Part shown: positions 1-14,200 of the stretch, in pieces | Position numbering within the stretch: position 1 is the first letter of the stretch | How the letters are laid out: every line of letters starts with the position of its first letter | From: Pseudomonadota bacterium | GTDB lineage: Bacteria > Pseudomonadota > Gammaproteobacteria > Burkholderiales > Burkholderiaceae_C | Length of the DNA: 64,000 nucleotides | NCBI GenBank assembly: GCA_020161065.1 | Contig: JAIUPH010000011.1 | Location: forward strand, 62,001 to 126,000 | Reading direction: 5' to 3' | Program-made: the position numbers and the translations under genes | The notes under the pieces: model-generated | The model's database searches: none | Seen by the model: the letters and a program-made list of their open reading frames with translations, nothing else | What the model was told of the DNA's origin: nothing

Positions 1-671
1 AGCGCGCCGTCGATGCGCGCCGCCTCATACAGGTGCGACGGGATGTTCTGCAGCCCGGTGAGCAGGATCACGACGAACAGCCCCAGCATCTGCCACACGG
101 CCGCCACCATCACCGCCGCCAGCGCGAACTGCGTGCTCTCCAGAAAGGCGATGGGCCGCGAGATCAGCCCCATCGACTGCAGCGCGTAGTTCACCAGGCC
201 GCCGCGGTCGTTGTACAGCCAGCGCCAGACGATGCCGACGGCCACCACCATCATCGGGTAGGGCAGGAAGATGATGCTGCGATAAAGGCCCTTGCCGACC
301 ACCTTCTGGTCGACCAGCAGCGCCAGGCCGAGCGCCAGCGCGATGGACAGCGGCGTGGCCAGCATGAACAGCCCCGTGTTCTTCAGCGCCACCCAGAAGG
401 TCTCGTCCTGGAACAGCATCTCCTCGTAGTGGGTGAGGCCGGCGAAGGCGATGGCCTTGCCGGGCGCCCAGTAGCTGAACGACAGCACCACGTTCCACAG
501 CAGCGGCACCACGCGGTAGGCCAGGTAGATCAGCAACGCCGGCGCCAGCAGCAGCGCGATGAACAGCCATTCGCGGCTGCGCCGGCGGGCGAAGAAGCCG
601 CGTCGCGCGGCGGTGGCGGCAGCGGCAACCGTGCCGCCGCCCGCCACCGGCTCAAGGACGGGCGAGCTCAC
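1..671 (-). CDS. Sugar ABC transporter permease, MalF/UgpA type (partial, 3' end off window)
   Basis: Inner-membrane permease subunit of a carbohydrate importer. The visible 223 residues have a short cytoplasmic N-terminus, a first membrane helix at about residues 32-55, further helices, and the start of the EAA loop (EAARIDGA) that docks to the ATPase. The C-terminal helices lie beyond base 1. I chose a GTG start at 671 because AGGAG lies 10 bases upstream and no ATG fits. This start overlaps the 3' end of the binding-protein gene by 20 bases, so the two are probably translationally coupled. A second permease (MalG type) would be expected to the left. Family is clear; substrate is unknown. 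Confidence 0.85.
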   Translation of the reverse strand, partial: MSSPVLEPVAGGGTVAAAATAARRGFFARRRSREWLFIALLLAPALLIYLAYRVVPLLWNVVLSFSYWAPGKAIAFAGLTHYEEMLFQDETFWVALKNTGLFMLATPLSIALALGLALLVDQKVVGKGLYRSIIFLPYPMMVVAVGIVWRWLYNDRGGLVNYALQSMGLISRPIAFLESTQFALAAVMVAAVWQMLGLFVVILLTGLQNIPSHLYEAARIDGA

Positions 672-1911
672 GGTCGATGCGCTCCTGCGCCTTGGCGAGC
701 GCGGCCGCCGCGTCGCCCTTGCCCAGCAGCACCGGCTGCACCTCGGTCCAGAAGATGTCCTTGACGCGCGCGTCCTTCGGCGTCTTCAGGTAGCCGGTCA
801 TCTTGTCGAGGTTGCGCGTCGTCAGCTCCAGCGCCTTGGCTTTCAGCGGGTTCTCGTCGCGCATCTTTTCGAGCAGCGCCTTGTCGACCGCGGTGTTGAG
901 CGTGGCCACCGAGAAGTTCTCGGCGAACACCTTCTGCCATTTGTCGGAGGTGGCGATCTTGATCAGCTCGACCGCGGCGTCGGGGTACTTGCTCGACTTC
1001 GAAACGCCGAAGCCATGGTTGTTGGGCACTGCGTAGAGGCCGGCCAGCTCGACCACCTCGACGCCCTTCTCGTCGATCCAGTCGGCCTTGCTCGCCGCCC
1101 AGAACAGCGCCGAGGTCGGCGCCAGGTACATCGCCACGTTGCCCGAGGCGAAGGCGGTGTTGGGCTCGACCCAGCGGCCGGTCCACGAGATGTTGTTGAT
1201 GACGCCGTTGCGCGTGGCTTCCGACAGCTTGGCCAGCGTCGCCGCGCCGGCGGCGGTGTTGAAGGCAGCCTTGGTCAGCGTCGGGTTCAGCACGTCGACG
1301 CCGTTCATCTTGAACAGCGGCCAGTACAGCCAGTCGAAGTTGGTGGTGAGGAAGCCCGACTTGCCCGGCCCCTTGACCTTGGCCGAGGCCGCCATCAACT
1401 CGTCGAAGCTGCGCGGCATCGCGTCGATGCCCGAGGCCTTCATCAGCGCCTTGTTGCCGAACAGCAGCGTCTTGCTGAAATACCAGGGCAGCAGCCAGTT
1501 CTTGCCGTTGGCGCTCCAGATGTCCAGCGCGCCGGGCGCGAAGCGGGCCTTCAGCGCCGCGTCTTTCGCGAGGTAGGGCGTGAGGTCGAGCAGGCGGTCG
1601 TCGAGCGCGTACTCGGCCCACAGCGTGCCCTGGATGTTGACCACGTCGGGCGCCGTGCCGGCCGCCAGCTGCGCCTGGTAGAAGGTGGCCCACTCGGTGC
1701 CCTTCTTGTCGATCCACTCGACCTGGATGTCGGGGTACTTCTGGTTGAACTCCTTGGTCCAGGCGGCGATCTTCTCGCCGTAGACCGGCAGGTTCCAGGT
1801 CAGCAGCGTGATCTTCTTCTGCCCCTGGGCCTGCGCCGGCAGCGCGGCGGCAACGGTGCCCAGCAGCAGGGCGGCGGCGGCGCGCGTCAGTAAGGTCTTG
1901 CGGTTCAACAT
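652..1911 (-). CDS. Sugar ABC transporter substrate-binding protein (family 1)
   Basis: Periplasmic receptor of 419 residues for the importer encoded around it. It has a Sec signal peptide (residues 1 to about 28, ending ALPAQA) and then the usual start of a cluster-B/extracellular family 1 receptor (ITLLTWNLPVYGEKI), with many Trp and Asn residues typical of sugar-binding clefts. A strong Shine-Dalgarno AAGGAG lies 6 bases before the ATG. The gene sits between the ATPase gene (82-base gap upstream) and the permease (20-base overlap). Ligand cannot be read from sequence; the neighbouring sugar-acid enzymes suggest a sugar, sugar acid or derivative. Confidence 0.9.
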   Translation of the reverse strand: MLNRKTLLTRAAAALLLGTVAAALPAQAQGQKKITLLTWNLPVYGEKIAAWTKEFNQKYPDIQVEWIDKKGTEWATFYQAQLAAGTAPDVVNIQGTLWAEYALDDRLLDLTPYLAKDAALKARFAPGALDIWSANGKNWLLPWYFSKTLLFGNKALMKASGIDAMPRSFDELMAASAKVKGPGKSGFLTTNFDWLYWPLFKMNGVDVLNPTLTKAAFNTAAGAATLAKLSEATRNGVINNISWTGRWVEPNTAFASGNVAMYLAPTSALFWAASKADWIDEKGVEVVELAGLYAVPNNHGFGVSKSSKYPDAAVELIKIATSDKWQKVFAENFSVATLNTAVDKALLEKMRDENPLKAKALELTTRNLDKMTGYLKTPKDARVKDIFWTEVQPVLLGKGDAAAALAKAQERIDRELARP

Positions 1912-1993
1912 GGTGTCTCCTTGGTGTCGTTGGCGGGTCGGGAAACGGGAATCGGCAGCAGGCGAGTCAGCGGGTGGCAGGCTCAGGCGCGGC

Positions 1994-3073
1994 TCACGAT
2001 CGCAAGGCCACGCCCGACGGGGCCGCGAACAGGTGCGAGCGCTGCAGGTCCAGCCGCAGGCCGATGGCCGAGCCCGGCAGCGGCCGCACCTCGGGGCGCA
2101 CGCGCGCCACCATCGACTGGCCGCTGATGCTGGCGAAGACCAGCGTGTCGGGGCCCAGCGCCTCGACGACGTCGACCGTGCCGCTGACGTCGGCCATGCC
2201 GGCCGGCGTCTCGCCTTGCGCCACCGTCACGTCTTCGGGGCGAATGCCCAGCACCACCGCGGCATGGTCACCGGCCTGGCCCGGCGCCAGCGGCACGCTG
2301 ACGGGGCCGTCGCCCAGCACCAGCTGGCCGCCGCGGCAGGTGCCGTTCAGCAGGTTCATGGTGGGCGCGCCGATGAAGCCGGCGACGAACTGCGTGCGCG
2401 GGCGGTGGTACACGTCGTCGGGCGAGCCCACCTGCTCGATGTGGCCGCCGCGCATCACCACCACGCGGTCGGCCAGCGTCATGGCCTCCACCTGGTCGTG
2501 CGTCACGTAGATGGTGGTGATGCCGAAGCTGCGGTGCAGGCGCTTGATTTCCAGGCGCATCTGTCCGCGCAGTTTGGCGTCCAGGTTGGACAGCGGCTCG
2601 TCGAACAGAAAGACCTTGGGCTTGCGCACGATCGCCCGCCCCATCGCCACGCGCTGGCGCTGGCCGCCCGACAACTGCTTGGGCTTGCGGTCGAGCAGCG
2701 CGCCGAGGTCGAGCACGCGCGCCGCCTCGCGCACGCGCTCGCCGATCTCGGCGGCCGGCACGCCGCGGTAGCGCAGCGAGAAGGCGATGTTCTCGAACAC
2801 GCTCATGTGCGGGTACAGCGCGTAGTCCTGGAAGACCATCGCGATGTCGCGGTCGCGCGCGTCGACTTCGTTGACGACGCGGCCGTCGATCAGGATCTCG
2901 CCGCCGCTGATGTCTTCCAGCCCGGCCAGCATGCGCAGGCAGGTGCTCTTGCCGCAGCCCGAGGGCCCGACCAGCACCACGAATTCGCCGTCGGCCACCT
3001 GCAGGTCGATGCCGTGCACGATGGGCACGGCGCCATAGTTCTTGGCCAGCTTGCGGAACTCCACCGTTGCCAT
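1994..3073 (-). CDS. Sugar ABC transporter ATP-binding protein (MalK/UgpC family)
   Basis: ATPase subunit of 359 residues that powers the importer. Walker A is GPSGCGKST (36-44), the Q-loop glutamine is in VFQDY (about 82), the signature LSGGQ is at 134-138, Walker B VFLFDEP at 154-160 and the H-loop is in YVTHDQ. The C-terminal 120 residues form the MalK-type OB-fold regulatory domain. The start at 3073 is preferred over an open extension upstream because it has GGAG 8 bases before it and begins like the family. It lies 13 bases after the dehydratase gene, so transport and catabolism share one transcript. MalK-type ATPases are often shared between several sugar importers. Confidence 0.93.
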   Translation of the reverse strand: MATVEFRKLAKNYGAVPIVHGIDLQVADGEFVVLVGPSGCGKSTCLRMLAGLEDISGGEILIDGRVVNEVDARDRDIAMVFQDYALYPHMSVFENIAFSLRYRGVPAAEIGERVREAARVLDLGALLDRKPKQLSGGQRQRVAMGRAIVRKPKVFLFDEPLSNLDAKLRGQMRLEIKRLHRSFGITTIYVTHDQVEAMTLADRVVVMRGGHIEQVGSPDDVYHRPRTQFVAGFIGAPTMNLLNGTCRGGQLVLGDGPVSVPLAPGQAGDHAAVVLGIRPEDVTVAQGETPAGMADVSGTVDVVEALGPDTLVFASISGQSMVARVRPEVRPLPGSAIGLRLDLQRSHLFAAPSGVALRS

Positions 3074-3086
3074 TCGTCGTCTCCGT

Positions 3087-4295
3087 TCACGCGCTCGGGG
3101 CGGTGCGCGCGGGCGCATGCTCGGGAGACGGCGTCGCCCAGGCCTGCGGCTCCAACAGCCAGGGCGCCAGCGGCGGCACCACGCCGGGCGTGTCGGGCAG
3201 GGACACCACGCCGTCGCGCACCACCAGGGGTTCGGCAAACGCCTCGCTGCGCTGGCGGTTGGGGTTGGCGTCCATCTCCACCATGCCGGCGCCGCCGATC
3301 GCGGCCTTGAACTGCAGGCTCGCCATCAGGCCGATGCCGCCGGCCAGCCAGTGCGGGCAGATCGACGCCGGCGTGCCCTGCAGGCGGCGCGCCAGTTGCA
3401 GGTTCTCGCTGATGCCGCCCCACTTGCCCAGGTCGGGCTGCAACACGCGCACCGCGCCGCGCTCGACGGCGTCGACGAAGCGCTGCTCGCCGAGCAGGTT
3501 CTCGCCCCCGGCGATGGGCAGCGAAGGCGCCAGCGCCGCCAGCAGCCGCCAGTCGTCCCACGCGGCATCGGCGCGCAGCGGTTCTTCGCACCAGGCGATG
3601 CCGGCTTCGGCCAGGCGCGGCAACCAGGCCTTGGCCTGCTCGACGGTCCAGCCCTGGTTGATGTCCACCATCAGCGTGGCGCCGCGCGGCAGCGCGTCGC
3701 GCGCGGCGGCGAGGCTGGCGTGGTCGGTCGCGTCGTCGAAGCCCAGCTTGATCTTGAAGCCGCGGTGGCCGGCGGCGTGCTGGGCGCGCACCGTCTCGGC
3801 CACGTGGCGCGGGCCGATGCCGCTGGCGTACACCGGCACCTCGCGCCGGCCGCCGAGCAACTGCCACAAGGGCTGGCCGGCGCGCTTGCCGAACAAGTCC
3901 CAGGCCGCCTGGTCCACGGCCGCGATCAGCTGCGCCATCGCGCCGTAGTCGGCGCACTGCAGGCGCAGGATGGCGAACAGCGCGTGCAGCCGGGCCTGCA
4001 CCTCGGCGGGCGCGGCGAAGCGCTGGCCTTGCAGCGCGGGGCGCACGTACTGCTCGATCAGCGTCGCCTTGTAGCGCGCGCCGCCGGCGGGAAAGTTGCA
4101 CCAGGCCTCGCCGAAGCCTTGCACGCCGTCGGCATCGGTCAGCCTGACGATCAGGCCCGGGCGCGAGTGCATGCTGCCGAACGAGGTGCGCACCGGCACG
4201 GCAATCGGATCGTCGAGCAGCCGCAGGTCGACCTGCGCGACCGTGGCCGGCGACCAAGCGACGGATGGGCGGGGCGCGTCGTCGATCGCCGCCAT
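3087..4295 (-). CDS. Mandelate racemase/muconate lactonizing-type sugar-acid dehydratase
   Basis: Enolase-superfamily enzyme of 402 residues, most likely a sugar-acid dehydratase that removes water from an aldonate or aldarate to give a 2-keto-3-deoxy acid. Visible active-site elements: KIK at 181-183 (K183 as general base), Mg ligands D211 (VDINQGW), E237/E238 (CEEP) and E265 (GGEN), D288 (QPDLG) and H315 (CPHWLAGG) as the His-Asp dyad. This K...H arrangement is that of the mandelate racemase subgroup. The ATG overlaps the stop of the aldolase gene as TGATG, and the product would feed that aldolase. Which sugar acid is used cannot be told from sequence. Confidence 0.88.
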   Translation of the reverse strand: MAAIDDAPRPSVAWSPATVAQVDLRLLDDPIAVPVRTSFGSMHSRPGLIVRLTDADGVQGFGEAWCNFPAGGARYKATLIEQYVRPALQGQRFAAPAEVQARLHALFAILRLQCADYGAMAQLIAAVDQAAWDLFGKRAGQPLWQLLGGRREVPVYASGIGPRHVAETVRAQHAAGHRGFKIKLGFDDATDHASLAAARDALPRGATLMVDINQGWTVEQAKAWLPRLAEAGIAWCEEPLRADAAWDDWRLLAALAPSLPIAGGENLLGEQRFVDAVERGAVRVLQPDLGKWGGISENLQLARRLQGTPASICPHWLAGGIGLMASLQFKAAIGGAGMVEMDANPNRQRSEAFAEPLVVRDGVVSLPDTPGVVPPLAPWLLEPQAWATPSPEHAPARTAPSA

Positions 4296-5089
4296 CAGTA
4301 GCCTGCGCTCTTGGCGGGCGCCGCGGCCTGGCGGCCGAACACGCCCATGTGCGACTTGATCGTTGCGTTCATGGCAGCCAGGTCAGAGCCGATGGCGACG
4401 AAATCGTAGCCGACCTCTGCCAGGCTGCGCGCCAGTTCCGCCGTCGGCGCCACCACGCCGGCCTTGCGCCCGGCGCGGTGCACGGCCTGCGGGGCCTGGC
4501 GCACCGCCGCCTGCACCTCGGGGTGCAGCACGTCGCCGAGGTGGCCCATGCTGGCCGCCAGGTCGCCGGGGCCGATGAAGACGGCGTCGACGCCGTCGAC
4601 CGCCGCGATCTCGGGCATGCGGGCGTAGGCCTCGACCGTCTCCACCTGCACGATGACGAACAGCTCGGGCCCGCTGCGCACCAGGTAGTCAGCCAGCGTG
4701 CCGTAGTGGCTGGCGCGATGGACGGCGGCCACGCCGCGGATGCCGGCCGGCGGATAGCGCGTGGCGCGCACGGCGGCGGCCGCCTGCTCGGGCGTCTGCA
4801 CCATCGGGAACATCAGCGTCTGCGCGCCGGCGTCGAGCACGCGCTTGACCGTCACCGCGTCGTTCCACGGCAGGCGCGTGATCGTGCCGGCCGGCGTGCC
4901 GGCCAGCGCGCGGTGGATGTCGACCATGTCGGGCAACTCGATCGGCACGTGCTCCATGTCGACGACGAGGAAGTCGAGCCCGCTCCAGCCCAGCGCCTCG
5001 GCGCAGGTGGCGGAAGCCGACATCAGCCAGGTGCCCAGCGGCGTTGGCGCTTCCTGCAGGCGGCGGGCGAAGCGGTTCTCGAAGCTCAT
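4295..5089 (-). CDS. HpcH/HpaI-family class II aldolase
   Basis: Pyruvate-type class II aldolase of 264 residues, expected to split a 2-keto-3-deoxy acid into pyruvate and an aldehyde. Family residues are present: D44-E46-H47 in VVDMEH (H47 as base), R72, metal ligand E150 in VQVE and D176 in IGPGDLA. The preceding gene's stop overlaps the upstream GTG at 5098, two codons before the chosen ATG at 5089, so either start gives nearly the same protein. No clear Shine-Dalgarno is seen, which fits translational coupling. It sits between a dehydrogenase and the dehydratase, as expected for the last step of a non-phosphorylative pathway. Confidence 0.9.
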   Translation of the reverse strand: MSFENRFARRLQEAPTPLGTWLMSASATCAEALGWSGLDFLVVDMEHVPIELPDMVDIHRALAGTPAGTITRLPWNDAVTVKRVLDAGAQTLMFPMVQTPEQAAAAVRATRYPPAGIRGVAAVHRASHYGTLADYLVRSGPELFVIVQVETVEAYARMPEIAAVDGVDAVFIGPGDLAASMGHLGDVLHPEVQAAVRQAPQAVHRAGRKAGVVAPTAELARSLAEVGYDFVAIGSDLAAMNATIKSHMGVFGRQAAAPAKSAGY

Positions 5090-5094
5090 GAGGT

Positions 5095-6123
5095 TCACCG
5101 TGAAGGGTTGGTGGGCGACGCTGGCGTCAACTCGATGGCGCGCTTTTCGACGAAGGCGCGCTCGGCCGCCAGCGAGACGGCGACGCTCGGCCGCGCCTGC
5201 TCGGGCGACATCACCGAGCGGCCCGCGTGGAAGCCCTGGTAGGCGCGGCGCAGGTTTTCTTCCAGCTCGAACACCTCGCCCGAGAGCGGGATGGTCAGCG
5301 TCTGCACGTCCGCATCGCCGCGCCGCAGCTTGAGCTCGAAGCTCGGCGTCAGCGTGCGGTCGAGCGTGCCGCTCCACCAGGTCCTCAAAGCGCCCGCGCT
5401 GCCGGCCAGTTCGAGCACCGTGTGGTGCTCGAAGCCGCCCAGGCATTGGTTGAGCACGGCGGTCGAGCCGTCGGCCCATTCGAGCACCACCGTGAAGTGC
5501 TCGCTCAAGGCGCCGCCGAGTTCGTTGCCGAAGGCGCTGACTTTCGCCGGCGGCCCGTTGCCTTGCGCGTACCAGAGGATGAGGTCGATGAAGTGCACCA
5601 GCTCTTCGAGCACCCACGAGCCGACGCGGCCCGGGTCGTAGCGCCAGCCGCCGGCGCCGCTGCGAAACGGCTTGCGGAACAGCGAGAGGTGCTGGTGGCG
5701 CACGGCGCCGATGGCGCCTTCGTCGAGCAGCGAGCGCACCAGGCCCCATTGCCGCGACACCCGCAGCTCGTGGTTGACGGCCACCTGCCGGCCGGCGCGC
5801 CGCGCGGCCGCGGCGACGGCGTCGCACTGCGCGAGGTCGAGGCCCAGCGGCTTCTCCAGGAAGACATGCTTGCCGGCTGCGAGCGCGTCGATGGCGGTCT
5901 GCGCATGCAGATGGTTAGGCAGCACGACGTTGACGACGTCGATGCCGTCGTCGCGCAGCATGGCGGCGCCGTCGTCGTACAGCCGTGCCGCGGGCACGGC
6001 CTCGGCCGCCGCCCGGCGCGCCGCCTCGCTGCGCGCCAGCACGGCCACCACCTGCGCGCCGTCGATGGCGCGGATGGCGGTCGCGTGCATCAGGCCCCAG
6101 GCCCCGAAGCCGGCCAGGGCCAC
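5095..6123 (-). CDS. Gfo/Idh/MocA-family NAD(P)-dependent oxidoreductase
   Basis: Sugar or sugar-derivative dehydrogenase of about 342 residues. The Rossmann fold opens with ALAGFGAWG close to the N-terminus, followed by the EKP motif (LEKPLGLD) that carries the conserved lysine of this family, and the C-terminal alpha/beta domain with a Glu/His-rich active site (ELVHFIDL). Start is uncertain: the GTG at 6123 places the Rossmann strand right at the N-terminus; a TTG at 6180 would add 19 residues but has no ribosome site, and no ATG is available. About 98 bases separate it from the upstream PLP-enzyme gene, the widest gap between catabolic genes of this operon. Confidence 0.82.
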   Translation of the reverse strand: MALAGFGAWGLMHATAIRAIDGAQVVAVLARSEAARRAAAEAVPAARLYDDGAAMLRDDGIDVVNVVLPNHLHAQTAIDALAAGKHVFLEKPLGLDLAQCDAVAAAARRAGRQVAVNHELRVSRQWGLVRSLLDEGAIGAVRHQHLSLFRKPFRSGAGGWRYDPGRVGSWVLEELVHFIDLILWYAQGNGPPAKVSAFGNELGGALSEHFTVVLEWADGSTAVLNQCLGGFEHHTVLELAGSAGALRTWWSGTLDRTLTPSFELKLRRGDADVQTLTIPLSGEVFELEENLRRAYQGFHAGRSVMSPEQARPSVAVSLAAERAFVEKRAIELTPASPTNPSR

Positions 6124-6221
6124 GCGGGTGGGCTTCGTCGGAGAGGGGTTTGGCGAACTTATGCGGGCCTCGCGTTGCAAGCGGTGGAGTGGAGAGAGAC
6201 GGCGCTGGTGGCTCGGATCGC

Positions 6222-7322
6222 TCAGCTCACGCGGCCGCGCGCATCGATGTCGAGGTGCCCGGCCGGCACGCCGCCGCGCGTGCACAGCAGCCGGTCGGCC
6301 AGGTTGCTGACGACGCAGGCGTGGTTGGGCAGCACCCTCACCTGCTGGCCGATGGCCGGCACCTCGGCGCAGGCCGAGACGTCGACGAAGCCATGCTCTT
6401 CGGCCAGCTTGTACAAACGCGCCTGCGGGTAGTCGATCAACAGCCCGTGGCCGACCTGGCCCGAGAGGTCGGACGACAGCGTCTTCGAGCCGGCGTCGAT
6501 CAGCACGCGGCCCGGCTCCGGGTGGCTGACCACCGTGGCGACCACGGTCAACGCGCAGTCGGCCAGCGTGGCGGCGCCGAGCGCCACCATCTGGCGGTCG
6601 TTGTAGACGTAGGTGCCGGCGCGGTACTCGGTCTCGCCCAGCGTGCCGATGCGCGCGCGGTTGGGCGTGCCGCCGCTGCAGAGGGTGCGCAGCGGCTGGC
6701 CGCGCGCTGCGCATTCGCGCCGCGCCTGCGCGATGAACGCGGCGCTCGCCGACAGCTCGCCTTCCGGCGGATAGAGCAGCAGGCCGTCGAACACCAGGCC
6801 CGGCAGGCCGGCGATGTGGGCGGCGAGATCGGCGGCGGCGCCGGCCGTCGTCACGCCGCAGCGCTGGCGGCCGGTGTCGCACTCGACCAGCAGGCGCAGC
6901 GGCGCGCCCGCGCGGCCGGCCAGCGCCTGCGCATAGCCGTCGGCGGCCTCGCGGCTGTCGCAGCACAAGCTCAGCGTGCAGCGATCGGCCAGCGCACGCA
7001 GGCGATGGTGCTTGGCGACGCCGACCACGTTGTACGAGATCAGGATGTCGGCGATGCCGGCCGCGGCCATCACCTCGGCCTCGCCGAGCTTCTGGCAGGT
7101 GATGCCGATCGCGCCGGCCGCGAGCTGCAGGCGCGCCATGCGGATGGACTTGTGCGTCTTGATGTGCGGCCGGTTGGCCACGCCCTGCCGGTCGCACAAG
7201 GCCTGCAGGCCGGCGATGTTGCGCTCGGCGACGTCGAGGTCGACGACGGCCAGCGGCGTGTCCAGCGGCATGTCCAGCAACGGCATCGCTTGCGGCATCG
7301 CTTGCGCAGCAACGGCGTTCAT
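6222..7322 (-). CDS. Alanine racemase-fold PLP enzyme, D-threonine aldolase / D-serine dehydratase (DSD1) type
   Basis: Fold-type III PLP enzyme of 366 residues. The PLP-lysine motif RPHIKTHK is at 51-58 (K55 presumed Schiff-base lysine), and near the C-terminus NHAC carries the HxC zinc site typical of DSD1-type D-serine dehydratases and D-threonine aldolases. It could deaminate or cleave a D-configured beta-hydroxy amino acid, including an amino-sugar acid. Its ATG overlaps the amidohydrolase stop as ATGA. The first residues are encoded by four 12-base tandem units (7258-7305), giving a low-complexity N-terminal tail before the conserved domain at LAVVDLD. Exact substrate is unknown. Confidence 0.85.
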   Translation of the reverse strand: MNAVAAQAMPQAMPLLDMPLDTPLAVVDLDVAERNIAGLQALCDRQGVANRPHIKTHKSIRMARLQLAAGAIGITCQKLGEAEVMAAAGIADILISYNVVGVAKHHRLRALADRCTLSLCCDSREAADGYAQALAGRAGAPLRLLVECDTGRQRCGVTTAGAAADLAAHIAGLPGLVFDGLLLYPPEGELSASAAFIAQARRECAARGQPLRTLCSGGTPNRARIGTLGETEYRAGTYVYNDRQMVALGAATLADCALTVVATVVSHPEPGRVLIDAGSKTLSSDLSGQVGHGLLIDYPQARLYKLAEEHGFVDVSACAEVPAIGQQVRVLPNHACVVSNLADRLLCTRGGVPAGHLDIDARGRVS

Positions 7323-8548
7323 GCCGCGGCCCCTTCGCGCGGCAGTTCCCAGGGCCGCGGCAGCGGCGCATGGTGGCGGCCGCCGCGCCACAGCGCCAGC
7401 GGCTTGAGCAGGCGCACGCCGTCGCGCTGCACGCCGGCCGCGTCGGTGAAGCGCAAGGCCACGTCGACGGGCTTGAGCAGCGCCACGTCGGCGCAAGCGC
7501 CAACGCCCAGGTGGCCAAGGTCCGGCCGCCGCAACGCCTGCGCCGGCGCGACGGTGACCATGCGCACCACGTCGCTCAGGCCGAGCCCGCAGTTCAGCAG
7601 CTTGTTCATGGTGTGCAGCAGGTCGAAGGCCGGGCCGTCGACGCTGAGGCCGTGCACGTCGCTGGAGATGCAGTCGGGCAGGAAGCCTTCGGCGATGGCG
7701 GCATCGGCGCTGGCAAAGCCGAAGGCGCCCATGCCGTGGCCGATGTCGAACAGCACGCCGCGCTGGCGGCCGCGGCGCAGCGATGGCAGCACGTGGCCGG
7801 CGTCGTCGACCGGCGCGTTCGGCGCCGGGCGGAAGCAATGGGTGAGGATGTCGCCGGCGCGCAGGCGGTCGACGATCTCGGCGTAGCCGGGCGGCGGCCG
7901 GCCGACGTGGCACATCACCGGCAGGGCGAGCAAGGCCGCGGCCTCGATGGCGCGGTCCAGCGCTTCGAGCCCGACCTCGCCAGACACCGCGCCGCCAAGG
8001 CGGACCTTGATGCCGACCACGCTGTCGGCATGGCGGCGCGCTTCTTCCACGCAACGCGGCACGTCGAGCAGCGCGCGGTGCGCCGCTTCGCCGACCATCA
8101 CGCGGCGGTCGAAAGCGAAGATGCCCGGGAACGAGATGTTCAGGAAGGCCAGCACGCGCGTCGCGGCGCGGCCGATCACGAAGTCGGCCAGCCCCGCGTA
8201 GTTGCCGGCGCCGGCGCTGCCCGCATCGACCATGGTCGTGACGAGCGAGCGCCGCGCCACCGCGTCGGGGTCCACGCCATACGACGTGGCCTTGTGGTAG
8301 ACGTGGGTGTGCAGGTCGATCAGGCCCGGCAGCGCGATGGCGCCGGCCGCGTCGTGCACGGCGGCGGCACCGGCCGTGCGCGCCAGGTCGCGGCCGAGGC
8401 GCGCGATGCGGCCGTTGCCGATGCCGATGTCGAGCGTCTCGTCGATGCCATGCGTGGGATCGATGACGCGGGCGCCGGCGATCACGGCGTCGAGCGGAGC
8501 GTCGAGCGCGGTGTCGAGCGAAGTGCCGAGTGAAGTGCGGTTCACCAT
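7319..8548 (-). CDS. Amidohydrolase/deacetylase, EF_0837/AHA_3915-type metallo-dependent hydrolase
   Basis: Metal-dependent hydrolase of 409 residues in the amidohydrolase superfamily. Metal ligands are visible: HTH of DLHTHVYH (strand 1), a lysine in GIKVRLG (candidate carbamylated lysine), H of MCHVG, H of THCF, and SSDVHG (strand 8 Asp). It resembles the deacetylase-like COG3964 group often found next to amino-sugar or amino-acid PLP enzymes, so de-N-acylation or ring opening is likely. The ATG overlaps the SDR stop by 7 bases. Codons 3-18 are built of 12-base tandem units (8487-8534) encoding a TSLG/TSLD/TALD/APLD repeat before the conserved domain. The substrate is inferred only from context. 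Confidence 0.83.
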   Translation of the reverse strand: MVNRTSLGTSLDTALDAPLDAVIAGARVIDPTHGIDETLDIGIGNGRIARLGRDLARTAGAAAVHDAAGAIALPGLIDLHTHVYHKATSYGVDPDAVARRSLVTTMVDAGSAGAGNYAGLADFVIGRAATRVLAFLNISFPGIFAFDRRVMVGEAAHRALLDVPRCVEEARRHADSVVGIKVRLGGAVSGEVGLEALDRAIEAAALLALPVMCHVGRPPPGYAEIVDRLRAGDILTHCFRPAPNAPVDDAGHVLPSLRRGRQRGVLFDIGHGMGAFGFASADAAIAEGFLPDCISSDVHGLSVDGPAFDLLHTMNKLLNCGLGLSDVVRMVTVAPAQALRRPDLGHLGVGACADVALLKPVDVALRFTDAAGVQRDGVRLLKPLALWRGGRHHAPLPRPWELPREGAAA

Positions 8549-9210
8549 GGCAGCGGCTGGCCGTCGAAGCTGACGTAGGTGCCCGTCTCGTGGTTGCCCA
8601 TGCGCGCCACGGTGGCACGCATGGCGCTGACGCTGTCGCGCGCGCTCAGCGGCGCCTGCGGGCTGCCGCCGGCGGTGTTGACCCAGCCGGGGTGGATCAT
8701 CGTGACGGCGACGCCGCGGCGGTGCAGGTCGAGCGCCAGGCTGCGGCCGACGGCGTTGAGCCCGGCCTTGCTGGCGCGGTAGCCGTAATGGCCGCCGGTG
8801 AGGTTGCTGGCGATCGAGCCCATGCGGCTGGTGACCAGCACGATGCGGCGGATGCCGCTGGCCGCCACGTTGTCGACGAAGGTCTCCACCAGCTTCAGCG
8901 CGCCCACAAGGTTGACGGCCAGCATGCGGTGCACGTAGTCGAAATCGAGCTGGCCCAAGTGCCCGCTGTCGAGGCCGATGCCGGCGTTGGAGACCAGCAG
9001 GTCGAGCGGCGCGCCGCCGATGCGTTGGCGCAAGGCCTCGAAGTCGCCGAAGGCCGTGACGTCGAGCGCCGCATGCTGCATGCGATCGTCGGCCAGCGCG
9101 TTGGCGATGTCGCGGTAGGTGGCCCACACGGTCCAGCCGGCATCGGCATATTGCTGCGCGAATTCGCGGCCGAGGCCGCTGTCGCAGCCGGTGACCAGCA
9201 CGCTCGTCAT
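8542..9210 (-). CDS. Short-chain dehydrogenase/reductase (SDR)
   Basis: Classical SDR of 222 residues. The cofactor motif is TGCDSGLG (7-14), followed by NAG (SNAGIG), the catalytic Ser in VTSRMGS and the YxxxK pair in YGYRASK. It would oxidise or reduce a hydroxyl/carbonyl in the sugar pathway, perhaps generating the lactone opened by the SMP-30 neighbour. The ATG overlaps the SMP-30 gene stop as ATGA. The protein is slightly short for the family (usually about 250) because the C-terminal substrate loop is brief, but no motif is missing. Confidence 0.9.
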   Translation of the reverse strand: MTSVLVTGCDSGLGREFAQQYADAGWTVWATYRDIANALADDRMQHAALDVTAFGDFEALRQRIGGAPLDLLVSNAGIGLDSGHLGQLDFDYVHRMLAVNLVGALKLVETFVDNVAASGIRRIVLVTSRMGSIASNLTGGHYGYRASKAGLNAVGRSLALDLHRRGVAVTMIHPGWVNTAGGSPQAPLSARDSVSAMRATVARMGNHETGTYVSFDGQPLPW

Positions 9211-10127
9211 GGCTTGGCCCTCGTGGTCGTCGTGACGGGTTGATCGAACAAGCTGAAGAAGGGCTCGGGCACGCCGCGCGCCCCCAACCCGTCGATGCTG
9301 AACAAGGCGCCGGCCTGCGGCCAGGCGGCGCGCTCGCCTTCGGCCAGCAAGCCGCTGGCGCTGCTGACGTACAGGCGGTCGAGCCGCGGGCCGCCGAAGG
9401 CCACCATCGTCGGGTGCTTGGCCGGCACCGCGATGCGCTCGACCAGGCGGCCGGCCGGCGAGATGCAGGCGACGGCCGCGCCATGCACCAGCGCGCACCA
9501 GTAGTTGCCTTCGCGGTCGCAGGTGGCACCGTCGGCGCGGCCTTCGATGTCGGCCGTCGAGAAAAAGACGCGCTTGTTGCCGATGCGGCCGCGTTCGAGG
9601 TCGAAGTCGTAGACCCACACGGTTTCGTCGCGGCTGTCGGCCAGGTACATGCGGCTGTCGTCGGGCGCGAAGGCGATGCCGTTGCCGATGATGAAGTCGC
9701 CGTCCATGCGCCGGGGCTGCAGGTCGGCGCCCAGCTGGAACAGCTCGGCCGAGCGGCCGATGAAATCGGAGTGCACGCTGGCACACCAGTAGCGGCCGCG
9801 GCGGTCGCACTTGCCGTCGTTGAGCATCAGCCGGCGCTCGCGCGCCAGCGGGTCGGCGAGCAGGCTGCAGTGCGCCTGGCCGTCGTGCAGGCGGATGTGC
9901 TGGAAGCCGGCGCGCGTGCCGGCAACCAGGCTGCCGTCGCGGCAGAAGACGAAAGAGCCGATGTCGAACGGCAAGGCGAAAGACTCGACGACGCCGCTTG
10001 CGGGGTCGAGCCGGCGGATGGCCGGCGCGAAGCTGTCCACCCAGTACAACCGCTGCTCGCCGGCATGCCACAGCGGCGATTCGCCCAGCCGGTCGGGCCC
10101 CGGCACGACGACTTGCACGTCGCTCAT
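9207..10127 (-). CDS. SMP-30/gluconolactonase/LRE-family lactonase
   Basis: Six-bladed beta-propeller lactonase of 306 residues. Family metal ligands are visible: Glu of LGESPLWH, Asn of MLNDGK and GNGIAF, and Asp of LADSRDE. It is expected to hydrolyse an aldonolactone to the free acid, the step before a mandelate-racemase-type dehydratase. ATGA overlap with the aldose epimerase stop couples translation. The gene lies second in the operon. Confidence 0.9.
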   Translation of the reverse strand: MSDVQVVVPGPDRLGESPLWHAGEQRLYWVDSFAPAIRRLDPASGVVESFALPFDIGSFVFCRDGSLVAGTRAGFQHIRLHDGQAHCSLLADPLARERRLMLNDGKCDRRGRYWCASVHSDFIGRSAELFQLGADLQPRRMDGDFIIGNGIAFAPDDSRMYLADSRDETVWVYDFDLERGRIGNKRVFFSTADIEGRADGATCDREGNYWCALVHGAAVACISPAGRLVERIAVPAKHPTMVAFGGPRLDRLYVSSASGLLAEGERAAWPQAGALFSIDGLGARGVPEPFFSLFDQPVTTTTRAKP

Positions 10128-10987
10128 GGCCGAGGCTCCCGGCAGCGATAGCGCAGGCCGTAGCTCGCGCGCTCGCCCGGCGGCAACCGGCAGGTGGACG
10201 GGCGGCCGGCGAAGTCGCCTTCGAAGTCGTCGCGGTCGCCGTGGCCGGTCCACGACTCGATGCACAAGAAGGGCGCGCCGCGCGGCTGCCAGAACGCCCA
10301 ATGCGCGAAGCCGCGGCTTTGCACGTCGACCGCCGAGCCGTCGGCCGCCTGCAGCGTGACGCTGCGGCTGCGCGCGTCCAGCAGGCACAGCGCTTCGTCG
10401 GCGAACAAGGCCTCGTCGAGCGCCAGCCGCCGCTGCGCCAGCGGAATGGCCCGGCGCGCCGCCGTGAACAGGCCTTGCGCGGAGATGACGGGCACCTCGG
10501 CGCGCTCGTCGGCCTCGAAGCGCAACTGCCCACCGCCCGCCCAGGGGAAGCCCGGGTGCAGCCCCAGCGAGTAAGGCAGTGGCCGCGTGCCGGTGTTGCC
10601 GACCTGCAGCTCGACCGTGAAGGCGCGCGCTTGCAGCGTGCAGTTCACGCGCAGCTCGAAGTCGAAGGGGTAGCAGGCACGCGTCGCGCCATCGCTGCGC
10701 AGCAGCAGGCCGACGCGGTCGGCCGACTGCTCGACGACGCTGAAGCTCGATGCAGCAGCGAACCCATGCGTCGGCATCGCGAGCGCCCGGTCGCCGAAGC
10801 GCGCCAGGCCGCCGCGCAAGCGGCCGACCACGGGGAACAGCAGCGGGCTGTGGCGCGGCCACCAGCGAGCGTCGCCCGACCACAGCCATTCGCGGCCGCC
10901 GCAGGACCAGGCGCACCATTCGGCGCCGCGCGTCGAGACGCGCGCCGTGGCGTCGCCGCAGGCCAGCGTCAAGGTCGCCGGCGTCAC
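10124..10987 (-). CDS. Aldose 1-epimerase family protein
   Basis: Galactose-mutarotase-fold protein of 287 residues, first gene of the carbohydrate operon. Catalytic-type residues are visible: His in MPTHGF, His in LGLHPGF (general acid) and Glu in CIESWTG (general base). It would interconvert anomers of the incoming sugar. The start is GTG at 10987; its first bases overlap the stop (GTGA) of a possible 16-codon leader ORF that begins at 11034. A GAGG lies 8 bases upstream. It is close to the LacX-like subgroup, where the true sugar is generally unknown. Confidence 0.88.
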   Translation of the reverse strand: MTPATLTLACGDATARVSTRGAEWCAWSCGGREWLWSGDARWWPRHSPLLFPVVGRLRGGLARFGDRALAMPTHGFAAASSFSVVEQSADRVGLLLRSDGATRACYPFDFELRVNCTLQARAFTVELQVGNTGTRPLPYSLGLHPGFPWAGGGQLRFEADERAEVPVISAQGLFTAARRAIPLAQRRLALDEALFADEALCLLDARSRSVTLQAADGSAVDVQSRGFAHWAFWQPRGAPFLCIESWTGHGDRDDFEGDFAGRPSTCRLPPGERASYGLRYRCREPRP

Positions 10988-11034
10988 GCCGCGGCCTCGG
11001 CCGTCATCTCGGGGCTGGCGAGGTCTTGGTCCAT
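10984..11034 (-). CDS. Possible 16-codon leader peptide ORF ahead of the sugar operon
   Basis: A short frame, MDQDLASPEMTAEAAA, starts with ATG only about 4 bases after the predicted transcription start and stops exactly over the GTG of the aldose epimerase gene (GTGA overlap). If real, it would be translated nearly leaderless and couple ribosome traffic into the first structural gene. It has no family resemblance, and its alanine/acid-rich composition is what GC-rich DNA readily produces. Treat as a candidate only. Confidence 0.25.
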   Translation of the reverse strand: MDQDLASPEMTAEAAA

Positions 11035-11122: not shown

Positions 11123-12052
11123 TCACGCCCAGGCCAGCTCGCCCGCCGCGGCGGGCAGGCCCGCGGCCAGGCCTTCGCGAACCGTCGGATGGCGCAGCGT
11201 GAAGCGCAGTTCGCGCTTGATGCGGCCGTTGTCCAGGCGGCGCGATTCGCTCATGAAGCTCAGGCTGGCGCCCGGCAGCTGGGCTTGCGCTTCGGCGCGG
11301 CCGAGGCGCGGCGGGCGCGGCAATCCGCTCAGGTCGGCCGCCAGGTCGAAGTAGTCGCCCATGCGCAGTTCGCTGTCGTCGCTGGCGTGCAGCACGCGCT
11401 GCGGGCGGCCGCGCAGCAGCGCCGCCACGCACAGCCGGGCCAGGTCGTCGGCGTGGATGTGGTTGGTGTAGACGTCGTCCTCGGCGCGCAGCACCGGGCT
11501 GCCGCGCCGCAGCCGCTCGCGCGGGTCGCCGCCGGGGCGGTCGGCGGCGTAGATGCCGGGCACGCGCAGGATGCTGACCGCCACGCCGTGGCGGCGGCCG
11601 AAGGCACGCAGCGCGCTTTCGGCATCGGCGCGGCGCCGCGCGCGGTCGGTGGCCGGCGCGATGGCGCGCGTTTCGTCGAAGCGCGCGCCGCCGCAGTCGC
11701 CGTAGACGCCGCTGGTGCTGGCGTAGACGATGCGGCGCAAGCCCCCATCGCGCGCCAGCGCCTGCAGCAGGTGGCGCGTGCGCGTGTCGGCGCTGCCATG
11801 CGCCGGCGGCGGCGCCAGGTGCAGCACGTGGTCGGCCAGGTGGGCCAGCCGGTGCAGGGTGGCCGGCTCGTCCAGGTTGCCCAGCAAGGGCAGCGCACCG
11901 GCCGCGCGCAGCGAGGCCAGGCGCTCGGGCGCGCTGGTCAGCGCCAGCACGCGCCAGCGCGGCTGCAGCAGGCGCAGCACGCGCAGCCCGATGTCGCCGC
12001 AGCCGACGATCAGCAGGCGCGGCCGGCGCGAGGCGGGTGCGGGAACGGGCAT
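11123..12052 (-). CDS. NAD-dependent epimerase/dehydratase family protein (extended SDR, YeeZ-like)
   Basis: Extended-SDR protein of 309 residues. The N-terminal nucleotide motif is VGCGDIG, with an STSGVYG motif followed by the sugar-epimerase-like region, but the YxxxK is not standard, as in the YeeZ-like group of atypical SDRs. Function is unknown; homologues are annotated as NAD(P)-dependent epimerases. The ATG at 12052 is preferred; an open extension to 12163 reaches into the divergent promoter region and lacks family similarity. It is transcribed away from the ferredoxin reductase gene, with a 112-base shared upstream region. Confidence 0.85.
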   Translation of the reverse strand: MPVPAPASRRPRLLIVGCGDIGLRVLRLLQPRWRVLALTSAPERLASLRAAGALPLLGNLDEPATLHRLAHLADHVLHLAPPPAHGSADTRTRHLLQALARDGGLRRIVYASTSGVYGDCGGARFDETRAIAPATDRARRRADAESALRAFGRRHGVAVSILRVPGIYAADRPGGDPRERLRRGSPVLRAEDDVYTNHIHADDLARLCVAALLRGRPQRVLHASDDSELRMGDYFDLAADLSGLPRPPRLGRAEAQAQLPGASLSFMSESRRLDNGRIKRELRFTLRHPTVREGLAAGLPAAAGELAWA

Positions 12053-12164
12053 GGCGAGGCGGCTCGGGTCAAGGCGGGGCGCGACAGGGTGTGACAGCGC
12101 GAGGGCACAATCGGCGGCCCAGTGTAGGTGGGCGCAACCCGCAGCCGCCCGTGAAGGCACCACC

Positions 12165-13208
12165 GTGAGTTTTCAAGTCACCCTCAAGCCGGCCGAACGC
12201 AGCTTCTCCGTCGAGCGCGATGAGGCCATCCTCGCCGCCGCCATCCGCCAGGGCATCGGCCTGCCCTATGGCTGCCGCGACGGCGCCTGCGGCTCGTGCA
12301 AGAGCCGGCTGCTCGAAGGCCGCGTGATCCACGGCGCACACCAGCTCAAGGCCTTGTCGCAGGCCGAGGAGGAGGCCGGGCTGATCCTCACCTGCTGCGC
12401 GACGCCGCAGACCGACTGCGTGGTCGAGGCGCGCAGCGTGCCGGGCGCCGGCGAGCACCCGGTGCTGAAGATGCCCAGCCGCGTGATGGCCATCGAGCGC
12501 GCCGCGGCCGACGTGATCGTGCTGCGCATGCAGTTGCCGGCCAACCAGACCTTCCGCTACCGCGCCGGGCAGTACATCGAGTTCATCCTGCGCGACGGCT
12601 CGCGCCGCAGCTACAGCATGGCCACCGCGCCGCAGCGCCTGGGCAACCCGCCGGCGATCGAGCTGCACCTGCGCCACATGCCGGGCGGCAAGTTCACCGA
12701 CCAGGCCTTCGGCACGCTGAAAGAAAAGGACATCCTGCGCATGGAAGGCCCGTTCGGCAGCTTCTTCCTGCGCGAGGACGGCGACAAGCCGCTGATCCTG
12801 CTGGCCAGTGGCACCGGCTTCGCGCCGATCAAGGCGCTGGTCGAGCAGATGCAGGACCAGGCCATCACGCGGCCCGCCGTGCTGTACTGGGGCGCGCGCC
12901 GCAAGGCCGACCTCTATCGGCACGACTGGTGCGTCGAGCAGGCCGCCGCGATGCCCACGCTGCGCTACGTGCCGGTGCTGTCGGAGCCGACGGCCGACGA
13001 CGGCTGGAGCGGCCGCACCGGCTTCGTCCACCAGGCGGTGATGGCCGACTGGCCCGACCTCTCCGGCCACGAGGTCTACGCCTGCGGCGCGCCGGTGATG
13101 GTGGACGCCGCGCAGCGCGACTTCGTGCAGCGCTGCAGCCTGCCGGCCGAGGCGTTCTACGCCGACTCTTTCACCTCCGAAGCCGACAAGCACGGCGCCA
13201 CGGCATGA
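12165..13208 (+). CDS. Ferredoxin-type NAD(P)H reductase (CDP-6-deoxy-delta-3,4-glucoseen reductase-like)
   Basis: Electron-transfer flavoprotein of 347 residues. The N-terminal plant-type [2Fe-2S] ferredoxin domain has the Cys pattern CRDGACGSC plus CC further on (about residue 75); then come an FAD-binding domain (RSYSMAT) and an NAD-binding domain (LASGTGFAP). It passes electrons from NAD(P)H via FAD to the Fe-S cluster and an unknown acceptor. In Burkholderiales this protein is usually annotated as the glucoseen reductase, although no deoxysugar cluster is present, so the true partner is unclear. GTG start with GAAGG 8 bases upstream; its stop overlaps the next gene's ATG (ATGA). Confidence 0.9.
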   Translation: MSFQVTLKPAERSFSVERDEAILAAAIRQGIGLPYGCRDGACGSCKSRLLEGRVIHGAHQLKALSQAEEEAGLILTCCATPQTDCVVEARSVPGAGEHPVLKMPSRVMAIERAAADVIVLRMQLPANQTFRYRAGQYIEFILRDGSRRSYSMATAPQRLGNPPAIELHLRHMPGGKFTDQAFGTLKEKDILRMEGPFGSFFLREDGDKPLILLASGTGFAPIKALVEQMQDQAITRPAVLYWGARRKADLYRHDWCVEQAAAMPTLRYVPVLSEPTADDGWSGRTGFVHQAVMADWPDLSGHEVYACGAPVMVDAAQRDFVQRCSLPAEAFYADSFTSEADKHGATA

Positions 13209-14200
13209 TCCATCGTCGTCACCTGCTGGCCGCGGCGCCAGGCCTGGCCCTGGCGCTGAATGCGGCGCCTTCGTGGGCGCAGCAAACCGCGCGCAGCATC
13301 CGCCTCGTCGTCCCCTACCCGCCCGGCGGACCGCTGGACGTGGTGGCGCGCGCGCTGGCCGAGCGCGTGAAGGACAGCCTCGGCACCGTGGTCGTCGACA
13401 ACCGACCCGGCGCCGGCGGCAACCTGGGCGCCGACCTCGTCGCCAAGGCCGCGCCCGACGGCCAGACCCTGGTGATGGGCGCGGTGGCCACGCATGCCAT
13501 CAACCCCTGGCTGTACGCCAGACTGCCCTACGACCCGGTGCGCGACTTCACGCCCATCACGCGCGTGGCCCAGGTGCCCAACGTGGTGGTGCTGAACGCG
13601 CAGACCGCGGCGCGCCTGCAGATCGACACGCTGGCCGACCTGGTGGCCTACGCCAAGCGGCACCCGGGGCAGCTCAACTACGGCAGCGGCGGCAACGGCA
13701 GCGCCGGCCACCTGGCCGGCGAGATGTTCAAGCGCCAGGCGGGGCTGTTCATCGTGCACATCCCTTACGCCGGCGGGCCGCCGGCGCAACTGGCGCTGCT
13801 CTCGGGGCAGGTCGACTTCACGATCGACAACCTGGCCACGGCCTCGGCCAACATCCGCAACGGCAAGCTCAAGGCGCTGGCGGTGACCACCGCGCGGCGC
13901 GCGGCCGCGATGCCCGAGCTGCCCACCGTGGCCGAAGCCGGCGCCCAGCTCGGCCTGGCGCAGTTCGACATCCACACCTGGTTCGGCCTGTTCGGCCCGG
14001 CGCACCTGGACCCGGCGCTGACGCAAAGGCTCAACAAGGCCTTCATCGACGCGCTGGCCACGCCCGAGTTGAAGGCCCGCATGACCACGCTGATGGCCGA
14101 GGCCGCGCCGACCACGCCCGAACAGTTCGGCGCCTTCGTGAAATCCGAGCTGGCGAAGTACGAGGCGGTGGTGAAGGCCAGCGGGGCGAAGGCGGATTGA
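13205..14200 (+). CDS. Bug/TctC-family tripartite tricarboxylate transporter substrate-binding protein
   Basis: Periplasmic receptor of 331 residues with a signal peptide (1 to about 24, ending SWA) and family motifs: PYPPGGPLD near the mature N-terminus, NRPGAGGN, and NYGSGGNG. It binds small carboxylates in this family. It is translationally coupled to the ferredoxin reductase. No TctA/TctB membrane components are nearby, so it is one of the many orphan Bug receptors of this order, which either share a distant TctAB or act in sensing. Confidence 0.93.
   Translation: MIHRRHLLAAAPGLALALNAAPSWAQQTARSIRLVVPYPPGGPLDVVARALAERVKDSLGTVVVDNRPGAGGNLGADLVAKAAPDGQTLVMGAVATHAINPWLYARLPYDPVRDFTPITRVAQVPNVVVLNAQTAARLQIDTLADLVAYAKRHPGQLNYGSGGNGSAGHLAGEMFKRQAGLFIVHIPYAGGPPAQLALLSGQVDFTIDNLATASANIRNGKLKALAVTTARRAAAMPELPTVAEAGAQLGLAQFDIHTWFGLFGPAHLDPALTQRLNKAFIDALATPELKARMTTLMAEAAPTTPEQFGAFVKSELAKYEAVVKASGAKAD

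Follow-up and report, generated by a model that had tools for sequence, protein, structure and literature searches.

What does an N-deacylase-like amidohydrolase do, together with a pyridoxal phosphate (PLP) enzyme, in the middle of an operon that probably serves sugar-acid breakdown? This question is raised by a run of minus-strand genes in a 64,000-nucleotide stretch of DNA from a Burkholderiaceae_C bacterium (assembly GCA_020161065.1, contig JAIUPH010000011.1, positions 62,001 to 126,000; G000:C37:62001-126000), which we call the window. We lean towards reading the operon as a system that takes up a 2-acylamino sugar (or the corresponding acid), e.g. an N-acetylhexosamine, and degrades it oxidatively without phosphorylation. 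The pair in question consists of an amidohydrolase/deacetylase family metallohydrolase (AH) and a fold-III PLP enzyme, and from the conservation of the gene set we think that it belongs to the pathway of the operon.

A probable sugar-acid operon with an amidohydrolase and a PLP enzyme

Codon-position GC indicated minus-strand coding without a break from about 11.0 kb down to base 1, and together with mapping of starts and stops and Pfam matches it placed one minus-strand operon at bases 1-10987 of the window. The 10 complete genes each gave a Pfam match of the expected kind, and the 11th, a permease gene, crosses the window edge. Base 1 corresponds to base 10001 of the neighbouring stretch L003, where two more genes, for another permease and for a small protein, extend the operon to the left, giving 13 genes altogether. 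In order of transcription, they are:

10124..10987, minus strand: aldose 1-epimerase (mutarotase), first gene, GTG start placed from frame and comparison with L007, the related locus described below; PF01263, E 7e-24
9207..10127, minus strand: SMP-30/gluconolactonase-type lactonase; PF08450, E 1.5e-69; nearest solved structure 7plb; ATGA overlap with the mutarotase
8542..9210, minus strand: short-chain dehydrogenase/reductase (SDR), 222 aa; PF00106; ATGA overlap
7319..8548, minus strand: AH, proposed N-deacylase; start ATG 8548 or GTG 8545; NF006689 match
6222..7322, minus strand: PLP enzyme of fold-III, from the D-threonine aldolase / D-serine dehydratase family; proposed to be a 2-amino-aldonate ammonia-lyase; PF01168 and PF14031; His334-x-Cys336
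5095..6180, minus strand: Gfo/Idh/MocA oxidoreductase, proposed sugar 1-dehydrogenase; PF01408, E 1.4e-26; TTG start uncertain
4295..5098, minus strand: HpcH/HpaI-type aldolase, proposed 2-keto-3-deoxy acid aldolase; PF03328; start GTG 5098 or ATG 5089; nearest solved structure 2v5j
3087..4295, minus strand: mandelate racemase / enolase superfamily enzyme (MR), putative sugar-acid dehydratase or epimerase; PF13378 and PF02746; nearest solved structure 3ddm (a 'putative' enzyme), E 6e-85
1994..3073, minus strand: UgpC/MalK-type sugar ABC (ATP-binding cassette) transporter ATPase; NF008653 over cut-off
652..1911, minus strand: ABC substrate-binding protein (SBP_bac_1), probably for sugar; PF01547; weak matches to sugar-binding proteins
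1..671, minus strand: ABC permease 1, cut at the window edge; PF00528; complete at L003 9697-10671
L003 8865-9677: ABC permease 2; PF00528
L003 8474-8848: CarboxypepD_reg protein, 124 aa, after permease 2

At six of the ten junctions inside the window, the genes meet in ATGA, GTGA or TGATG. Four-base ATGA or GTGA overlaps join mutarotase to lactonase, lactonase to SDR, SDR to AH, AH to PLP enzyme and Gfo to HpaI; with the alternative starts, the SDR/AH overlap becomes 7 bases (ATG 8548) and the Gfo/HpaI overlap becomes a gap (ATG 5089). The HpaI/MR junction is a 1-base TGATG, and the other four junctions comprise gaps of 41 (PLP/Gfo), 13 (MR/ABC ATPase) and 82 bases (ABC ATPase/binding protein) and a 20-base overlap between binding protein and permease. 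At the family level, one operon unites a dehydrogenase and a lactonase with an enzyme of a dehydratase family and an aldolase for 2-keto-3-deoxy acids, and the HpaI and GarL models match the aldolase at scores under their equivalog cut-offs. A preliminary description made from the letters alone had proposed a minus-strand operon of at least eleven genes overlapping at most junctions, with epimerase, lactonase, dehydrogenases, MR-type enzyme and HpaI aldolase of the non-phosphorylative kind, and both points are borne out by the data above. Its overall picture is correct, and its limits of 1-11034 need revision, since the first gene begins at GTG 10987 and the operon runs on to the left of the window.

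Conservation and co-localisation of the pair

Homologues of all 13 genes lie within 13 kb (L007 5505-18301, 48-88% identity) in G329, a genome of another genus of the same family whose assembly is 92% complete and 6% contaminated; open reading frame calls in the relatives are heuristic. There, behind a gene for a GntR/FCD regulator, the order is HpaI, MR, RidA, mutarotase, lactonase, SDR, AH, PLP enzyme, ABC ATPase, Gfo, binding protein, permeases and small protein. The RidA gene is an addition (L007 7500-7970, PF14588/PF01042) and overlaps both of its neighbours. Every gene, including those for AH and the PLP enzyme, has been kept while the order changed, which argues for one pathway. A consistent lack of the pair in homologous clusters would have spoken against the preliminary description, and in the sole full homologous cluster that we found the two genes are still adjacent.

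A search with the PLP enzyme (E<=1e-50) gave 3 positives, own genome included, among 399 genomes of the same family; when 399 genomes drawn from the order were searched at E<=1e-80, the own genome alone was positive. The third family-level genome, G016, was rejected as a further cluster, because its PLP gene (48%) has no match to AH, MR, HpaI, Gfo, lactonase or mutarotase beside it in the 16 of 21.5 kb that were read. Around this PLP gene (locus L008, contig G016:C90) lie a carbohydrate-type ABC system, made up of a UgpC-type ATPase, two permeases and a binding protein, and genes for an SDR and RpiR. GC-content is 52% for the G016 contig, 65-66% for L007 and 70-76% for the window; since the genome is filed in the family of the window, contamination of that assembly is possible.

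Beyond the family, we scanned named genomes with the PLP alignment and took the 80 best-scoring loci. AH occurred in 16 of them, and other enzymes of the operon in 0-4 at the same threshold. Paralogue-rich families were found more widely (ABC ATPase in 47, RpiR in 17, Dpp-type binding protein in 16, aldehyde dehydrogenase in 13), and homologues of the two operon permeases in 10 and 13. AH is itself uncommon: among 398 genomes drawn from the phylum, 28 have it, counting the own one (E<=1e-60; this draw overlaps in part with those of the PLP searches), and in view of this rarity we judge chance proximity of AH and PLP genes very unlikely. Any RidA was seen in 36 of the 80 loci, and 14 of the 16 loci with AH had one. 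The genes for AH, RidA and the PLP enzyme follow in that order on one strand in 11 loci, from Microvirga, Bosea, Alsobacter and others; in L041 a GNAT gene separates the first two.

Contexts were also followed from AH itself. Of the 31 places that the phylum-wide search gave outside the own genome, 20 were read, together with one further non-own place; several of these 21 loci share a genus (L133-L138, L143-L145). A fold-III PLP enzyme was present in 5, a PLP enzyme of DgaE/SelA/class V type in 2, RidA in 12 and none of these in 7. AH and PLP genes stand with carbohydrate-type ABC genes in L063 (Martelella; AH 54%), L080 (Aminobacter) and L146, the latter two also with FAH-hydrolase and aldehyde dehydrogenase genes. 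In L063 a CutC-family gene (1160-1912) lies directly beside AH, RidA and the carbohydrate-type ABC genes. In L098 (6926-10813, a Phyllobacterium plasmid) and L149, AH and RidA occur with a class V-type PLP enzyme, a family other than fold-III. A different AH context recurs in L130, L131 and L133 (and in L134-L137 by tblastn), where AH lies near RidA, RpiR, ABC ATPase and Gfo, and in the first three also with an FMO-like (ArsO-related) monooxygenase. We rejected L130 and L131 (AH 55-56%) as instances of the same pathway; L130 has an NMT1-type binding protein, the FMO-like monooxygenase, Gfo, SDR, RpiR, a PLP gene and RidA.

Predicted reactions and competing explanations

AH scored 391.3 bits on NF006689 (cut-off 371), which places it among amidohydrolase/deacetylase family metallohydrolases. 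On TIGR03583, the EF_0837/AHA_3915 subgroup, the score of 259.4 bits was below the cut-off of 432.15. We take this family to be COG3964, and its ligands presumably form a binuclear metal site. For COG3964, activity towards acetyl-(R)-mandelate is reported, and a weak one towards N-acetyl-D-serine. Solved members of the family are named dihydroorotase and adenine deaminase.

The PLP enzyme has Ala_racemase_N and D-ser_dehydrat domains, both over cut-off, and belongs to the D-serine dehydratase-like / D-threonine aldolase-like fold-III family. In sequence and fold it is somewhat closer to D-threonine aldolases (structure model with pLDDT 90.7), and a D-threonine aldolase is its best match. Its metal site is His334-x-Cys336, and this H-x-C motif is shared by 81 of the 83 sequences in the alignment (the own one among them), the remaining 2 being gaps. 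H-x-C is also present in D-threo-3-hydroxyaspartate dehydratase 3wqc, whose PDB titles (C353A mutant in metal-free form, H351A mutant) mark these as studied residues, and in the uncharacterised 3llx, whereas H-x-D is the motif of the three aldolases compared, 4v15, 7dib and 6qkb. The comparison did not extend to aldolase 7yqa or to chicken D-serine dehydratase 3anu, whose zinc site we take to be H-x-C. Judged from these alignments, the metal site is of the dehydratase-branch type, and with RidA as a frequent partner this favours beta-elimination as likelier than aldol cleavage. BhcC-type 3-hydroxy-D-aspartate aldolase was rejected as an identity for the enzyme (NF045642, 161.2 vs 690 bits).

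From these genes we infer the following reactions and their order. A sugar would be imported by the ABC transporter, converted by the mutarotase and oxidised at C1 to the lactone by the Gfo/Idh enzyme (or the SDR), and the SMP-30 lactonase would open the lactone to a 2-acylamino-aldonate. AH would then N-deacylate this to a 2-amino-aldonate, a D-beta-hydroxy-alpha-amino acid, from which the PLP enzyme would remove water and ammonia to leave a 2-keto-3-deoxy-aldonate. The HpaI-type aldolase would split this acid into pyruvate and an aldehyde, and the SDR may reduce the latter. MR might either reach the same keto acid by dehydration of a neutral aldonate or act as a C2 epimerase. The substrate may be similar to N-acetylglucosamine (GlcNAc). 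Deacylation, a PLP step and an aldol split had been suggested in the preliminary description for an N-acylated or amino-sugar acid; this outline fits the families and L007, and its choice of 'beta-elimination or cleavage' is narrowed to beta-elimination by H-x-C and RidA.

Several observations weigh against this route. MR is superfluous to it, and 3ddm, the nearest solved relative of MR, is itself only 'putative'. AH was missing from the fetched stretch in 64 of the best 80 PLP loci. No RidA gene was found among the genes of the window operon, and the two homologues in the own genome lie on contigs C31 and C33. AH and PLP genes accompany a Dpp-type binding protein in, e.g., L041, L139 and L141. 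The identity of the sugar is a further weak point of the proposed pathway. L041, L139 and L141 also speak for a rather unlikely alternative, in which the operon degrades a neutral sugar and the AH/PLP module for N-acyl-D-hydroxyamino acids is a hitch-hiker: there, AH, RidA and PLP genes occur with no sugar enzymes of the operon by tblastn, and all families of a neutral route are present in the operon even when AH and the PLP enzyme are left out of the count. However, the two genes lie amid a run of overlapping genes, remain adjacent in the reordered L007 with a coupled RidA, and stand with carbohydrate-type ABC genes in L063, L080 and L146.

The D-threonine aldolase likeness raises another possibility, that the PLP enzyme is a true retro-aldolase splitting the 2-amino-aldonate into glycine and an aldehyde, so that the HpaI aldolase would serve the MR branch only. 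Its best sequence and fold match is such an aldolase, and its relatives are annotated as that family; we nevertheless consider this improbable, given the H-x-C site against H-x-D in the three aldolases compared above and RidA, of the imine/enamine deaminase family, in nearly all loci with both AH and PLP genes, as expected of an eliminating enzyme. AH could also be an O-deacylase that takes an acyl ester off the 2-hydroxyl or another position of a sugar acid and so feeds MR rather than the PLP enzyme. The AH family reportedly prefers acetyl-(R)-hydroxy acid esters in vitro, and the invariant residues of AH fail to separate ester from amide hydrolysis. Yet AH lies beside PLP enzymes of different families (fold-III, DgaE in Klebsiella, class V in Phyllobacterium), which suggests an amine product and makes O-deacylation a similarly poor candidate. 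Compared with these alternatives, N-deacylation followed by beta-elimination is the reading that we carry forward.

Relation to known pathways

The closest published counterpart is the ong oxidative chitin pathway, OngB-OngC-OngD-KdgK (PMC9537276 and PMC12017989). There, oxidised chitin is deacetylated and then deaminated by a fold-III PLP enzyme to 2-keto-3-deoxygluconate (KDG), and RidA is essential (PMC9537276). The preliminary description knew of no described pathway with this exact gene set; the idea of a scheme without precedent is not supported, since deacetylation plus a fold-III PLP lyase leading to KDG is published for oxidised chitin (PMC9537276) and AH recurs beside PLP enzymes in other bacteria. 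The route proposed here from the genes resembles it in that an amidohydrolase-superfamily enzyme would deacetylate an N-acyl 2-amino-aldonate and a fold-III PLP step to KDG would follow. The RidA partner, OngD in ong, is shared by L007 and not by the window operon. The likeness to OngC is one at the level of the fold-III family.

There are also differences from ong. AH belongs to a family other than that of OngB, the subtype V, D-aminoacylase-like GlcNAc1A deacetylase, and was rejected as its orthologue. The window operon has an HpaI-type aldolase and no KDG kinase; no kinase was found among the 10 complete window genes and the three genes left of the window, to which this search was confined. 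Unlike ong, neither the own genome nor G329 has a match for a lytic polysaccharide monooxygenase or chitinase (AA10, GH18; E<=0.001), so that own attack on chitin is unlikely and chitin was rejected as direct substrate. By analogy, the operon is best described as working like the ong pathway without being a member of it, since its deacylase is of a different family and neither a kinase nor RidA is among its genes. Absence of the classical GlcNAc route was dropped as an argument, because NagA is present in both genomes and the NagB result is not decisive (nothing over the cut-off of the NagB model in either, NagB being the one glucosamine-6-phosphate (GlcN-6-P) deaminase family that the search covered).

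In a Klebsiella record (L092 7004-11196), an AH homologue (36%) forms a run with genes annotated as DgaE-family ammonia lyase, KDGP aldolase family and lactonase, and PRD and DUF4310-4312 genes adjoin it. L147 repeats this at 94-100% identity and is not independent. Related to the D-glucosaminate (dga) system, the run looks like a phosphorylated N-acyl-glucosaminate-type route and, with its PRD and DUF4310-4312 neighbours, like one linked to the phosphotransferase system. Like the operon as we read it, these clusters bring together an AH homologue (36-37%) with a PLP-dependent ammonia lyase, an aldolase for keto-deoxy acids and a lactonase, whereas lyase, aldolase and lactonase come from other families: DgaE and DgaF are not in the window operon, whose PLP and aldolase genes are of the PF14031 and HpcH_HpaI families, and DgaE has a fold of another family than the fold-III enzyme. 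With neutral non-phosphorylative sugar-acid routes using an HpaI-type aldolase, the operon shares mutarotase, dehydrogenase, lactonase, MR-family enzyme and HpaI aldolase, and to our knowledge no AH/PLP pair is part of those routes. Predicted GlcNAc clusters of Natrarchaeobius (PMC12343721), which are chitinase clusters, hold genes for glucose dehydrogenase, galactonate dehydratase, a homologue of D-glucosaminate-6-phosphate-lyase and a RutC-family protein. They differ in being archaeal, in that CE14 deacetylates the sugar before oxidation, and in a DgaE-type lyase and a proposed phosphorylated intermediate. Among the papers listed in an open-licence library, none describes the gene set of the window.

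The operon combines enzyme types that are all known, in an unusual way, and does not amount to a new kind of system. A bolder idea, which we hold tentatively and with more doubt than belief, is that free N-acetylhexosamine is oxidised first, in a route without any phosphorylation, and that COG3964-type enzymes form a second, independently evolved N-acyl-aminoaldonate deacylase family, pairing with RidA and PLP lyases of several families; on the same tentative footing, their dihydroorotase and adenine deaminase names could be misannotations. If the route is real, an amino sugar could be burned with neither a sugar kinase nor GlcN-6-P deaminase, and the combination of deacylase, PLP lyase and keto-acid aldolase would have come together repeatedly, each time with other enzyme families. 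The operon offers a test case for the physiological role of an AH family whose solved members bear unlikely names, and for 'D-threonine aldolase family' proteins with a dehydratase-type metal site.

To the right of the operon, window bases 11123-14200 hold a minus-strand NAD-dependent epimerase-family gene and plus-strand Fer2/FAD/NAD oxidoreductase and TctC-type receptor genes. These are unlike parts of a sugar route, and thus the operon seems to be a block between unrelated genes.

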